The position numbers and the translations under genes were made by a program. The notes under the pieces are model-generated. The model was not told where the DNA came from and ran no database searches. It saw only the letters and a list, made by a program, of their open reading frames with translations. Of a stretch of DNA of 38,900 bases, positions 6,466-38,900 are shown one piece after another (positions within the stretch are counted from its first letter, which is position 1; each line of letters starts with the position of its first letter). Location: assembly GCA_002456975.1 (NCBI GenBank), contig NTKA01000014.1:1-38900 (forward strand), read 5' to 3'. The stretch comes from Halieaceae bacterium MED-G27. Its GTDB lineage: Bacteria > Pseudomonadota > Gammaproteobacteria > Pseudomonadales > Halieaceae.

Positions 6466-7236
6466 ATGAAACCAATGAAAGCGGGAACCAAGATAGGACT
6501 AGCGGCGTTCGTATTAGCGCTGGTAGCCGCTCGCTATTGGTTCTATTTGGCCGCTGAGGTAGCACTGCCGGCGAACCGATTGTGGTTTGTGGTCGCGTTC
6601 TTGCTGGCGGCAAGCTTAGGCGTATTCGCCTTGATAAAGCGCACTAGCTGGTTGGGCGCTATTCCACCGATCGGTGCGATCGTTATTGGACTGTTTCTCC
6701 CTTTCACTATTGCGGTGAGTTCACAGAGTGTTGAGGCAAACCGTGTTATTGCTGTTGGCGACACCATTCCCTCATTTTCGGCGATCGATGGAGCTAGCAA
6801 TGCCTTCGATTCCTCGAGTCTGAATGGCCATCTCGTTCTCATAAAATTCTTCCGAGCCCATTGGTGACCCTACTGCGTCGGCGAGTTACGTCGACTAGAG
6901 GAGTTGAGAGCCGAGTTTGATCAGCGCGGAGTGACGGTTTTGACGGTGAGTGTTGACTCGCCCGAGGAAATCGCGGAAGGCCGCCATTTGCATGGCTCGC
7001 AGGCGACAATGCTGTCCGATACTGCGCTTCAGGTTACCGATGCATTCGGTCTGCGAAACACAGGTTTCCACTCAGCACCTGGCAGTGAAGAGGCCGAGGC
7101 CTTGCCTGTGCCAGCAACGCTGTTAGTCGATCGCTCAGGCAAAGTGCTTTGGATGGATTTATCCGAAGATTATCAGCGCCGTTCGGATCCGTCAGTGGTG
7201 CTCGCGGCCATGCGGGCTCATTTCGATACCCTGTAA
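6466..7236 (+). CDS. Membrane-anchored redoxin, probable selenoprotein (TGA at 6865-6867 read as Sec)
   Basis: The same frame runs from ATG 6466 to TAA 7236 apart from one TGA at codon 134. Read through, the protein is 256 residues: three predicted membrane segments (about 12-32, 43-63, 66-85), then an AhpC/TSA-type thioredoxin fold from about residue 95. The TGA falls in FFRAHW-U-PYCVGELRRLEE, where relatives have CPYC, so U replaces the first cysteine of the redox motif. Downstream the fold continues normally (VTVLTVSVDSPEE, ATMLSDTALQVTDAFGLRN, VPATLLVDRSGKVLW). With three membrane helices and an N-in start the redox domain would face the periplasm. A SECIS-like hairpin begins 10 bases after the TGA (6877-6895). 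A convergent, related gene at 7293-8516 has the same feature. Alternatives are a nonsense mutation or sequencing error, which would not explain the cysteine position, the hairpin and the second case. Exact start (6466 or ATG 6475) is uncertain. Confidence 0.87.
6877..6895 (+). promoter_or_regulatory. Candidate bacterial SECIS element of the first redoxin
   Basis: Seven consecutive pairs: 6877-6883 (GTCGGCG) with 6889-6895 (CGTCGAC), one of them G-U, closing a five-base loop AGTTA at 6884-6888. The loop starts 16 bases after the TGA, inside the range known for bacterial SECIS elements, and has a G at the second loop position as that model asks. A lower stem CTA/TAG (6870-6872 with 6896-6898) may extend it after a one-sided bulge. 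SECIS RNA is bound by SelB to bring in Sec-tRNA. Seen: hairpin and spacing. Inferred: function. Confidence 0.75.
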
Positions 7237-7278
7237 GTCGAGCTTGGTTTATAGGTCGCGTAGGCAATCCGGGTAGCG

Positions 7279-7293
7279 GCTCTACAATAGAGC
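7279..7293. terminator. Short hairpin between two convergent genes, possible bidirectional terminator
   Basis: GCTCTA / TAGAGC with a three-base loop CAA lies in the 56-base gap between the two convergent redoxin genes and touches the stop codon of the minus-strand one. There is no T-run on either side, so efficient intrinsic termination is doubtful. Confidence 0.35.
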
Positions 7294-8516
7294 TAGGTGT
7301 CTCGTTGCCGCCTTCTCGCGGCACGCTCAAGCCGGCGGTTTTTCAAAATAAACTGAATGAGGCGGAACGGATTGTGCCTGATCTTTCGCCAGAGCAAGCG
7401 CCGCAGCGCGGGTACGCTGTCGTAGCCTCCTTCGCGTTGCCCGTGGCCGGTATGCATAGGTAAATTCGGAACCTCGATGACGTCCAGTGGTAACTCCAAA
7501 CTCAGCTGCTGTTGGATTGGTAATAAGCAGGTCGTATCGTTACAGGCTTGATAGTGAATATCGATCGATAGACTAGTAGAGGGGGCATCTAAAGGTCGGC
7601 ATTCACTGGCCAGCTCGCCCGTCGCATAGATGGGTATCACTATATCAACCTGGCCGCTCCACACTTGAAGCTCTACCCCAAGCGACTCGAGCCTCAATGG
7701 ACTACTCGGGGGGTATTTTGCGGGCATCACCTGCAGTCCCTCGGGGCCGGTCACTGAGATCGCTGTGGCAGTGAGTCCCTCGGGGACAGGATCGCCATAG
7801 ATGTGCAAACCCTCGGGCAACGCAAAGCGAACAATCAGTTGTCGAATGATTCCCTGCCGAAGACTACCACTGCCGCCTCGTACCGAGGCTGTGATCGCGA
7901 TCTCATCCTTGTGCACGGACCTTGTAGGCGCACTCTCGTCGATGACGATGCTACCCAGAGCTGCGTCGATTAACGCCTCCGGGCTTTCTCTTTTCTTGTA
8001 GGAGTCGTGAAAAAACTTTGAAACAACAATGCCGTTTTCATCGCAGATATAGACACCTGGAAAGGGGATGCCGTAAAGAAAGGCATCCGACTTGGACACC
8101 TCAGTATTTAATAAACCAAACTGTTTGATAACAGCCGAGTCAATATCGGATAGCAGCGTGTACGGGATTTGATGATGCCGCCCGAACTCCTTGAGCGTTT
8201 CCTGATCATCATAGGATAGCGCGTACAGTTTGATGCCATTGGCTTCAAATTTCCCGAAGGCGTCTCGCAACTCAACTAGCTGCGTCCAGCACGGTGGTCA
8301 CCAGACTGCCGAGCGATAAAAGACCAATGCAGCTTTGGCGGATCCTCGGTCTTCATGGAAGTCGATCCGCTGCCCAGAGGAAGTTGGCAGCTGAAAATCG
8401 GGAAGTTTTGACCCCACCTCGGGACCCGTCGCGGTACCGGAAGGCATACTGGCACGCGCCGGATGGCCCACGGGCGCTGGGGCATCAAAGCCTAATGAGT
8501 CGCGCTCTACCACCAT
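7293..8516 (-). CDS. Redoxin-DsbD-alpha-like fusion, probable selenoprotein (TGA at 8298-8300 read as Sec)
   Basis: On the minus strand one frame runs from ATG 8516 (preceded by TAGGAGA, 8 bases upstream) to TAG 7293, broken only by TGA at codon 73. Read through it is 407 residues. Residues about 32-175 are an AhpC/TSA redoxin (VGSKLPDFQLPTSSGQ, ALVFYRSAVW-U-PPCWTQLVEL, IKLYALSYDDQETLKEFG, YTLLSDIDSAVIKQFGLLN, GVYICDENGIVVSKFF). U stands at the first cysteine of the CxxC motif (W-U-P-P-C). Residues about 190-350 resemble the N-terminal (alpha) domain of DsbD: LPEGLHIYGD, PIYATGEL, and a paired-cysteine motif IHYQACNDTTCLLPIQQ. The tail is rich in Arg. No signal peptide is evident, so the cellular side is unclear. 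A SECIS-like hairpin follows the TGA (8266-8284). Without recoding the product would stop at 72 residues, before any active site. Confidence 0.86.
8266..8284 (-). promoter_or_regulatory. Candidate bacterial SECIS element of the redoxin-DsbD-alpha gene
   Basis: Reading the minus strand, CGCAGCT (8284-8278) pairs with AGTTGCG (8272-8266) in seven consecutive pairs, one G-U, closing the five-base loop AGTTG (8277-8273). The loop begins 20 bases after the TGA. The apical loop is nearly identical to that of the neighbouring gene (AGUUG here, AGUUA there) although the surrounding coding sequences differ, which argues for a common SelB-binding signal. Confidence 0.75.
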
Positions 8517-37758: not shown

Positions 37759-38385
37759 TTATAAGCAGCAGGCCACCTTTAATTGCGAGCCGCAACTTAT
37801 CCTTCCTTCCAACTGACCTGCTTCAGTAGCGGTCATGCCAAAACCTGTCTGAGAAGACCAACCTTCACAAGTGAGTTCATCGCCAGAGTTGAATTCAACA
37901 CCGGTATTAAGCTCTATCACCCCACCCTGCGACGGCATCATTACTGGCAAAATCCAGGCTCTACCAGTCATGGTCTCAGAAGGGCAAGTAATTGCCGCGT
38001 CATCACATGGCTTTGCGACTGAATTCGCAAACTCTGTAGTGTTACATATTTTGCTTCCCGAGAATCTTCCATCGCAGGCCTTCACCATTTGCGTTAAGCC
38101 AGCATCACCAAACAAAACCTGATTGGAATAGCCTTGGAAAATTGGATCGCTAGCTGTTTCCATTGCGCTGATTCTGACATCGTTATCGTTAACTGCAGTT
38201 TCAACTGCAGAAAAGTTCGCGTTCATATCTGCTGCGCTCGTTTGTGTTCCTGCCTCAAATTCATTTGGTACATCCAAGGGGCCACTAAGCGCAGCGGAAC
38301 TTATCATCAAAAGTAATGCCGCAAAGACCTTAAAATGGCTCCACTCAAATATTTTCTTTACCTTCCCCACGTTCCATTCTCCCAT
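37759..38385 (-). CDS. Secreted protein with coiled-coil N-terminus, function unknown
   Basis: About 208 residues from ATG 38385 (a TTG at 38400 is possible). Membrane/signal segment FKVFAALLLMISSAALS then VPNEFEAGTQTSAADMNANF followed by SAVETAVNDNDVRISAMETA, a short coiled coil that is common in exported proteins of marine bacteria. The C-terminal domain has paired cysteines (ACDGRFSGSKIC, CDDAAITC, LTCEGW, ISCGSQLKVACC), suggesting disulfides. The start overlaps the end of the upstream repeat protein by 28 bases, so the two are probably an operon. Confidence 0.68.
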   Translation of the reverse strand: MGEWNVGKVKKIFEWSHFKVFAALLLMISSAALSGPLDVPNEFEAGTQTSAADMNANFSAVETAVNDNDVRISAMETASDPIFQGYSNQVLFGDAGLTQMVKACDGRFSGSKICNTTEFANSVAKPCDDAAITCPSETMTGRAWILPVMMPSQGGVIELNTGVEFNSGDELTCEGWSSQTGFGMTATEAGQLEGRISCGSQLKVACCL

Positions 38386-38900
38386 GTTGTTGATCCCCAA
38401 ACCGTCTCGGTCTCATTTTGTACAGTCCAGCCAGAATATTCCCAAGAGGTTGCACCCCAGATCGAGTATAACGCCAACGTGTTATCAAGTGGTGCAGCGT
38501 CCACCGTATCTGGCACACCGTCACCGTCGTCATCAGTATCTTCGTTATTACCTACACCGTCTTGATCCGTATCCGTGGTTTCACTTGCATCCAAAGGAAA
38601 AGCATCTTCGACATCCGAGGCACCATCATTGTCGTCATCTGTATCTTCGTTGTTTCCAATACCATCTCCATCGGTATCTACTGATTCACTTGGATCCAGC
38701 GGAAAAGGATCTTCAAGATCTGGGACACCATCTCCATCATCATCTGTATCAGCATTATTCCCTATACCGTCTCCGTCTAGGTCATATTGCTCCAGCGGAT
38801 CAAGTGGAAATGCGTCGGCATTGTCTCCCACGCCATCACCGTCCGTATCAGCGACTTCAGAGGGGTCGAATGGATAAAAGTCCTCGCTGTCTCTAGTTCC
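38358..38900 (-). CDS. Thrombospondin type-3 repeat protein (3' part; 5' part beyond the window)
   Basis: The minus-strand frame is open from the window edge to TAA 38358, so only the last 180 residues are visible. They contain Ca-binding TSP3 repeats of the form DTDGDGIGNNEDTDDDGDGV with PDxxDxFPLDPSE; three complete 35-residue units are at 38487-38801, with a shorter unit before them. The C-terminal tail has a twofold WGATSWEYSGW / WGSTTWENGTW repeat. Such acidic repeats occur in secreted or surface proteins of marine gammaproteobacteria and need calcium to fold. The rest of the protein, its signal and main domain, are not visible. Confidence 0.85.
   Translation of the reverse strand, partial: GTRDSEDFYPFDPSEVADTDGDGVGDNADAFPLDPLEQYDLDGDGIGNNADTDDDGDGVPDLEDPFPLDPSESVDTDGDGIGNNEDTDDDNDGASDVEDAFPLDASETTDTDQDGVGNNEDTDDDGDGVPDTVDAAPLDNTLALYSIWGATSWEYSGWTVQNETETVWGSTTWENGTWGR
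38487..38801 (-). repeat. Three tandem 105-bp repeats coding for TSP3 units
   Basis: Units at 38697-38801, 38592-38696 and 38487-38591 each encode 35 residues beginning D-x-x-E and ending F/AAPL, with the DxDxDG calcium loops in the same places. The DNA copies diverge at many third positions, so the array is not a recent duplication. Confidence 0.8.

Follow-up and report, generated by a model that had tools for sequence, protein, structure and literature searches.

Two convergent genes with in-frame TGA codons in a marine gammaproteobacterium: a probable pair of selenoprotein genes

The question raised by this locus is whether two TGA codons, each lying within the reading frame of one of two convergent genes (P1 and P2), end translation or encode selenocysteine (Sec). 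The standard code splits each gene into two open reading frames (ORFs) and, apart from the TGA, the frames of both genes are open throughout. An earlier note on the window (the whole stretch of 38,900 nucleotides analysed here) had described two convergent genes with in-frame TGA, and both codons are indeed found where it had placed them. The features of the locus are listed below.

6466-7236, plus strand: P1 gene, with PF00578 and the motif W-U-P-Y-C; 256 aa with the Sec codon read through
6865-6867, plus strand: in-frame TGA of P1, most likely a Sec codon, residue 134
6877-6895, plus strand: bSECIS-like hairpin of P1, arms 6877-6883 and 6889-6895, loop AGUUA at 6884-6888
8516-7293, minus strand: P2 gene, with PF00578 and PF11412; 407 aa with the Sec codon read through
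8300-8298, minus strand: in-frame TGA of P2, most likely a Sec codon, residue 73 (from ATG 8516) or 87 (from TTG 8558)
8284-8266, minus strand: bSECIS-like hairpin of P2, arms 8284-8278 and 8272-8266, loop AGUUG at 8277-8273
7527-7544, minus strand: CX4C pair in the DsbD-N-type domain of P2, YQACNDTTCLLP; C325 and C330 counted from ATG 8516

The stop codons of the two genes are separated by 56 bases. The mechanical ORF of P2 begins at TTG 8558 and is longer than the frame that begins at ATG 8516; the latter is the probable start, judging from the relatives and from an AGGAG upstream of it. The coordinates of the CX4C pair were derived from the P2 frame and then checked against the window sequence. 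Around the site, P1 reads ...IKFFRAHW-U-PYCVGELRRLEEL... and P2 reads ...VFYRSAVW-U-PPCWTQLVELRDA.... Elsewhere in the window, a minus-strand frame (38358-38831) holds repeated units of the D-x-D-x-D-G type, which by eye resemble calcium-binding repeats.

The TGA is strictly conserved at the redox site, W-U-x-x-C, of both genes. It is present in 19/19 distinct close orthologous segments of P1 and in 29/29 of P2, counted after identical segments had been merged and matches below 50% identity or not spanning the site had been excluded. Within the genus, a P1 orthologue occurs in 20 of 57 genomes, each with exactly one internal TGA, and a P2 orthologue in 9 of 37, all with TGA; among these nine matches, one (G031) is truncated where its contig stops, and a TAG is seen as well in two, apparently at the very start of the match, ahead of the ATG. 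P2 was scanned for with six peptide patterns and, because one of these is the Cys form, a Cys version was not disfavoured. In the collection of named genomes, 27 P2 loci were found, of which 26 cover the site (L102 begins downstream of it), and these have TGA in 26/26 cases and no Cys. Full-length P2 was also found in six of 390 genomes sampled across the order, all with TGA, although these six matches are not independent, as the source genome, G006, G016 and G017 had already been counted and L142 and L143 match L091 and L104 in their identity to P2 and at the site.

Cys does occur at this site in more distant sequences. Six loci of one-domain P2 relatives were read at the site, two with TGA and four with TGC, and the distant homologues of P1 have Cys, with TGA in L107-L109 (43-45% identity). 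No further in-frame stop was found in the aligned proteins (22 and 20 sequences), and the protein is conserved on both sides of the TGA. Thus, in P1 and in P2 alike, the UGA occupies the position of a redox Cys and the frame is conserved beyond it, as is characteristic of selenoproteins.

Additional evidence is provided by the silent sites. For sequences that share a residue, the identity of their codons was compared, in stretches of ten codons, with the expectation from the codon usage of the family; only matches that span the site with at least 50% identity were used, and sequences less than 2% apart in codons were merged. In both genes the top-scoring stretch starts at the TGA, with a value of 0.50 against a median of 0.10 in P1 (rank 1 of 231) and of 0.31 against a median of 0.06 in P2 (rank 1 of 275). 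Because all the stretches of a gene share one tree, relatedness is largely controlled in this test. Among the P1 stem codons, GGC, GAG and CGT are each found in 19/19 sequences and GTC/ATC always ends in C; the codons just past the hairpin vary as expected from codon usage. Among those of P2, ACG is found in 28/29 and GAG in 29/29. The first codon after the TGA, which lies outside the hairpin, is constrained too (CCC in 17/19 for P1 and 25/29 for P2). This silent-site constraint indicates that the hairpin is conserved beyond the needs of the protein. As an evolutionary pattern, the peaks at the TGA and the conservation of the codon itself clearly exceed chance.

The hairpins themselves give a more mixed picture. 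Each consists of seven pairs, one of them G-U, and a five-base loop, which starts 16 nt after the TGA in P1 (AGUUA) and 20 nt after it in P2 (AGUUG), exactly the geometry that had been described before. Both lie within the published limits for bSECIS elements (loop of 3-9 nt, stem of 4-16 pairs, spacing of 16-37 nt, a G within the first two loop positions and an MFE of -7.5 kcal/mol or lower), which is a weak argument alone because such hairpins often arise by chance. An Rfam search of the window matched only a tRNA and no SECIS. When folding energies were compared with those of synonymous recodings, made with the codon usage of 20 window genes, p was 0.02 for P1 and 0.25 for P2, and p<0.05 was reached in 2 of 47 segments (P1 of the window and L099); L087, which contains an N, was left out of this test and of the hairpin-frequency test. 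In about 10% of the recodings of either window gene, a stem of the same length forms whose loop is headed by G; the share with a G[G/U] loop head on such a stem is 2.6% for P1 and 7.2% for P2. Dinucleotide shuffles gave z values of -2.0 (P1) and +0.3 (P2) for 60-nt segments and of -2.7 and 0.0 for segments of 41-42 nt. P2 and most relatives thus do not beat a codon-shuffled control, the very comparison by which the earlier note had proposed to judge the hairpins, and folding energy from shuffles and recodings was dropped as evidence, as it is not significant overall.

The near-identical AGUU loops, presented in the same note as a shared feature of the two genes, proved to be largely a coincidence specific to this species. 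The loop of the P2 family is GGN, except in the window (GUU) and in L099 (GUC); because the family has Gly (GGN) where P2 of the window has Val (GTT), the relatives have loops such as AGGUG or GGN closed by C-G, and the loop match was dropped as evidence. Since the two hairpins lie at different codons (loop at 16 versus 20 nt), they are not simply one inherited element.

Pairing was counted in 19 P1 sequences (18 distinct ones and the outgroup L108) and in 27 P2 sequences; the outgroups L107 and L109, in which the P1 stem is not kept in the same form, were excluded. Pair 17-27 of P1 is G-U in 18 sequences and C-G in L108, which keeps the stem, and the outermost P1 pair is A-A in 4/19. In P2, pair 21-31 is G-C in 16 sequences, G-U in 8, A-U in 2 and contains an N in one, pair 19-33 is broken (C-T or C-A) in 6/27 and pair 18-34 (A-C) in 1/27. 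The compensatory changes expected in relatives are therefore present in part, as the change in L108 and those at pair 21-31 keep the stem, but covariation is slight and some pairs break; with too few varying pairs, it was rejected as main evidence. The pairing of CAA with TTG in L085 and L096 (2/2) is not significant by a hand estimate, because TTG is also common with CAG. Two one-domain Sec-type relatives of P2 with about 35% identity, L149 (G664) and L152 (G540), have CAG-CTC-GTN at the place of the P2 hairpin and a loop head of GUU or GUG, and the position of this hairpin may therefore be older than the P2 fusion.

The machinery for Sec is complete in the source genome, whose assembly (2.02 Mb, 75% complete) carries the window on contig C6. 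The tRNA-Sec gene selC (69.7 bits, cut-off 47), selB (390.7 bits, cut-off 242) and selA (577 bits, cut-off 268) are direct neighbours on contig C21; C58 carries selD (398 bits, cut-off 125), so that the four genes expected of a genome with selenoproteins (selA, selB, selC and selD) are all present; the P1-P2 pair and selA-selB-selC are on separate contigs of this assembly. Judged by its closest named relatives, which are records of Halieaceae and Luminiphilus (HTCC2080 among them), the source genome is Luminiphilus or close to it, in keeping with the marine gammaproteobacterium that the earlier note had assumed as host. Its view that Sec use is patchy in this lineage agrees with the finding of selB above the cut-off in 21 of 57 genus genomes.

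The presence of P1 follows that of selB, which was detected in 17 of 20 P1 carriers and in 4 of 37 genomes without P1 (p=4e-8 by Fisher's test, with no correction for phylogeny; G032, in which selB is split and below the cut-off, is not included in these four). The P1 carriers in which selB was not detected (G019, G067 and G072) are assemblies that are 79-83% complete. A tRNA-Sec scoring above 60 bits was found in 16/20 P1 carriers and 5/37 non-carriers. Outside the genus, nine hand-picked genomes were inspected, and selB is above the cut-off in 4/5 with a TGA homologue (G678, G485, G520 and G039, the TGA of G520 being known from the stop count alone) and in 0/4 with a Cys homologue (G232, G621, G377 and G383). 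One genome, G646 (L132:6403-7119), has a P1 homologue with TGA, and the hairpin is conserved too, one pair having changed on both sides from G-U to C-G. In this genome, rated 100% complete, no selB above the cut-off and no selC were found, and its sole tRNA-Sec match above the cut-off is a tRNA-Ser according to ARAGORN. In G646 the system may have been lost, a contig may be missing or the codon may be decoded in another way.

The two genes are also linked to the sel genes in some relatives. In three (L126, L127 and L129) of the 12 neighbourhoods that were fetched, selC has selA-selB next to it and is no more than 7 kb from both genes, P2 being 2.0-5.6 kb and P1 3.3-6.8 kb away. P1 occurs with sel genes in L128 and L131, at a distance of about 1 kb in the former and 12.5 kb in the latter; in L130 the sel genes are accompanied by the cut-off start of P2. 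In the named HTCC2080 locus (L082), which is probably from the same genome as L126, P1, P2, selA, selB and selC are all present. L132, L133 and L134 have a P1 homologue and no sel genes in the neighbourhood; L135, L136 and L137 (G007, G063 and G066) have selA-selB-selC, and P1 and P2 were not found there. These last three genomes may hold other selenoproteins.

By coordinates, P1 and P2 are adjacent in 12 of the 20 P1 carriers. Across 22 P2 loci, P1 is a neighbour in six, all close relatives, and other families among the greedily called ORFs near P2 are shared by three or four loci each, some of them being spurious frames of P2 itself. A search of viral sequences yielded no P2 relative, and a search of plasmids yielded distant Prx-domain matches on five plasmids, none covering 80% of P2. 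In G019 (L055:1379-1480; 79% complete), where selB was not detected, only the last 34 residues of P2 were found beside a TGA-bearing P1; possibly, the loss of Sec use is under way in this genome.

Some further observations concern the sel genes themselves. selC serves as an insertion site for mobile elements in E. coli, and it looks like one here as well: on C21 of the source genome, selC is immediately followed by two ORFs that look like recombinases from their sequence (L017 190-2087), and a similar ORF of 567 residues follows selC in G030 (L131 4332-6226), where roughly 8 kb precede a nitroreductase-like gene. The latter, named by eye, stands directly after selC in G006 and about 3.5 kb from it in G074. 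G008 has two tRNA-Sec matches of equal score (C136 and C229), a duplicate or an assembly artefact. selD, which scores above its cut-off in 46 of the 57 genomes of the genus, is much more widespread there than selB (21/57), which would fit a separate use of selenophosphate, for example for selenouridine in tRNA.

Judged from these sequence data, the locus is very probably a convergent pair of selenoprotein genes with Sec inserted at both UGA codons. The earlier note had proposed the same, pointing to the likeness of the loops and to the hairpins, and its proposal stands for other reasons: it is supported by the conservation of the TGA, the silent-site peak, the presence of selA, selB, selC and selD, the co-occurrence with selB and the linkage to sel genes, and not by loop likeness or hairpin stability. 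If the TGA codons were instead true stops, both genes would be broken by nonsense codons or would encode truncated products, with the downstream parts as separate ORFs. This is how the standard code splits them, and G646, which keeps the TGA without a detected selB, and G019, with its 34-residue tail of P2 beside P1, could be read in this way; however, a stop retained in 19/19 and 29/29 distinct segments, with protein conserved on both sides, no second stop in the 22 and 20 aligned proteins, a silent-site peak at the TGA and the full Sec machinery in the genome, makes this explanation highly improbable. Very unlikely, too, is the reading of UGA as Trp or Cys by near-cognate suppression. A C after the UGA makes for a leaky context, both genes have TGAC and G646 would need some such route, but the site aligns with Cys in homologues, P1 tracks selB and a leaky stop predicts no silent-site constraint extending to about 11 codons downstream.

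Another explanation concerns the hairpins, which might be a by-product of constraint on the proteins and on some codons, Sec insertion needing no specific hairpin. The folding energies, which mostly match those of synonymous recodings, the equally long G-headed hairpins in about 10% of these recodings, the scarcity of covariation and the constrained CCC codon outside the hairpin (17/19 and 25/29) all point in this direction. Codon identity at most stem codons, however, is far above the expectation from codon usage and drops right after the hairpin, and this explanation is accordingly considered improbable.

If P1 and P2 are indeed selenoprotein genes, a complex of SelB, GTP and Sec-tRNA(Sec) would bind the hairpin just downstream of the in-frame UGA at which the ribosome has arrived, and selenocysteine would be inserted there in place of termination. 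The P1 product would be a membrane-anchored thioredoxin/Prx-like protein with a U-P-Y-C redox site, and the P2 product would be a U-P-P-C Prx-like domain fused to a DsbD-N-type domain endowed with its own C-x4-C.

The AhpC-TSA domain (PF00578, cut-off 26 bits) is matched with 87 bits by P1 and 97 bits by P2. In P1, three hydrophobic stretches precede the Prx-like domain, which suggests a three-helix membrane-anchored protein, and because lysines occur ahead of helix 1 and between helices 2 and 3, the Prx-like domain is probably periplasmic. No membrane stretch was found in P2 and its N-terminus is of low confidence in the predicted structure, so this protein is probably soluble and cytosolic. 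The predicted structures have a pLDDT of 83.6 (P2) and 81.7 (P1), and the best 50 structure matches listed are peroxiredoxins (Bcp/PrxQ, AhpC, Tpx and others) and ResA/DsbE-type oxidoreductases. The DsbD-type domain of P2 is supported by the sequence match and not by the fold matches: PF11412 scores about 35.6-35.7 bits in P2 of the window (cut-off 25) and is matched by 22/22 P2 orthologues, with E values up to 0.001, and C325 and C330 are invariant in 22/22 aligned orthologues. This C-x4-C pair is the likely partner of the Sec/Cys pair, and electrons would pass between the two.

As for the assignment to known families, neither protein reaches the cut-off of any NCBIfam model, and the two score 34.9 and 39.0 bits with NF040769, for which a SelL-related redox protein would have at least 120 bits. 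True peroxiredoxins typically have a Thr three residues before the peroxidatic residue (TxxC/U), and both P1 and P2 have an Ala there. DsbD consists of an N-terminal domain, a multi-helix membrane domain and a C-terminal thioredoxin domain; of these, P2 has the N-terminal-type domain alone and, as it contains no membrane stretch, is without the membrane domain of DsbD. P2 shares with the N-terminal domain of DsbD (PF11412) an above-cut-off match and a conserved Cys pair, and differs in that the domain sits behind a Sec-type Prx-like domain and that the Cys spacing is C-x4-C. Both Prx-like domains have ResA/TlpA-kind oxidoreductases and Bcp/PrxQ peroxiredoxins among their top matches by sequence and by fold; P1 and P2 differ from these by having UxxC and no Thr three residues before the site. 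An AhpC-TSA domain with UxxC, as found in both proteins, is instead the mark of the Prx-like UxxC selenoproteins.

The relevant sections of five papers (PMC13188914, PMC9312934, PMC5029168, PMC1088965 and PMC2398784) were used for comparison. Prx-like thiol:disulfide oxidoreductase selenoproteins (PF00578, UxxC) are catalogued in PMC13188914 and PMC9312934 and carry the name "Prx-like 1" in PMC2398784; the relevant section of a 2022 review lists Prx as TxxU. As described in these sections, they have in common with P1 and P2 the AhpC-TSA domain, the UxxC motif, the existence of Cys homologues and the occurrence in marine bacteria; P1 differs by its three N-terminal membrane helices, and a DsbD-N-type domain such as that of P2 is not among the features given there. 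Neighbouring selenoprotein genes are already known from marine reads, according to the sections compared of PMC2398784 and PMC13188914. The present locus resembles them in having two adjacent redox selenoprotein genes, and differs from those described there in that the genes are convergent, pair a P1-type with a P2-type protein and lie near selA-selB-selC in some relatives. In the open-access literature, no description was found of the P2 fusion (searched as selenoprotein with DsbD, AhpC or peroxiredoxin-like) or of selenoproteins of this genus (Luminiphilus, Halieaceae, OM60 or HTCC2080). We rate P1 as a new member of the known Prx-like UxxC selenoproteins and P2 as a fusion for which no description was found. 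Proteins like these are easily missed or called truncated because the standard code splits their genes at the TGA.

A broader reading is offered tentatively, as a real possibility that falls somewhat short of being probable. P2 may represent an obligate-selenium two-domain family, which exists only in the Sec form, with Cys never replacing Sec and with an internal relay from the Sec/Cys pair to the C-x4-C pair that depends on Sec; together with P1, it may mark a small selenium island, whose gain and loss go along with those of selA-selB-selC in gammaproteobacteria of the surface ocean and which reached Deltaproteobacteria/Myxococcota, if the record labels are right. Cys homologues exist for nearly all selenoproteins, as stated in the section consulted of a review, and a fusion found only with Sec (26/26 named loci covering the site) offers a natural way of testing which abilities of Sec are beyond Cys. 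Furthermore, a Sec system was detected in some closely related genomes of the genus and not in others, one genome having P2 reduced to a 34-residue tail, and the family includes one genome that has kept the TGA without a detected selB. With such relatives available, the loss of Sec use could be studied stepwise.
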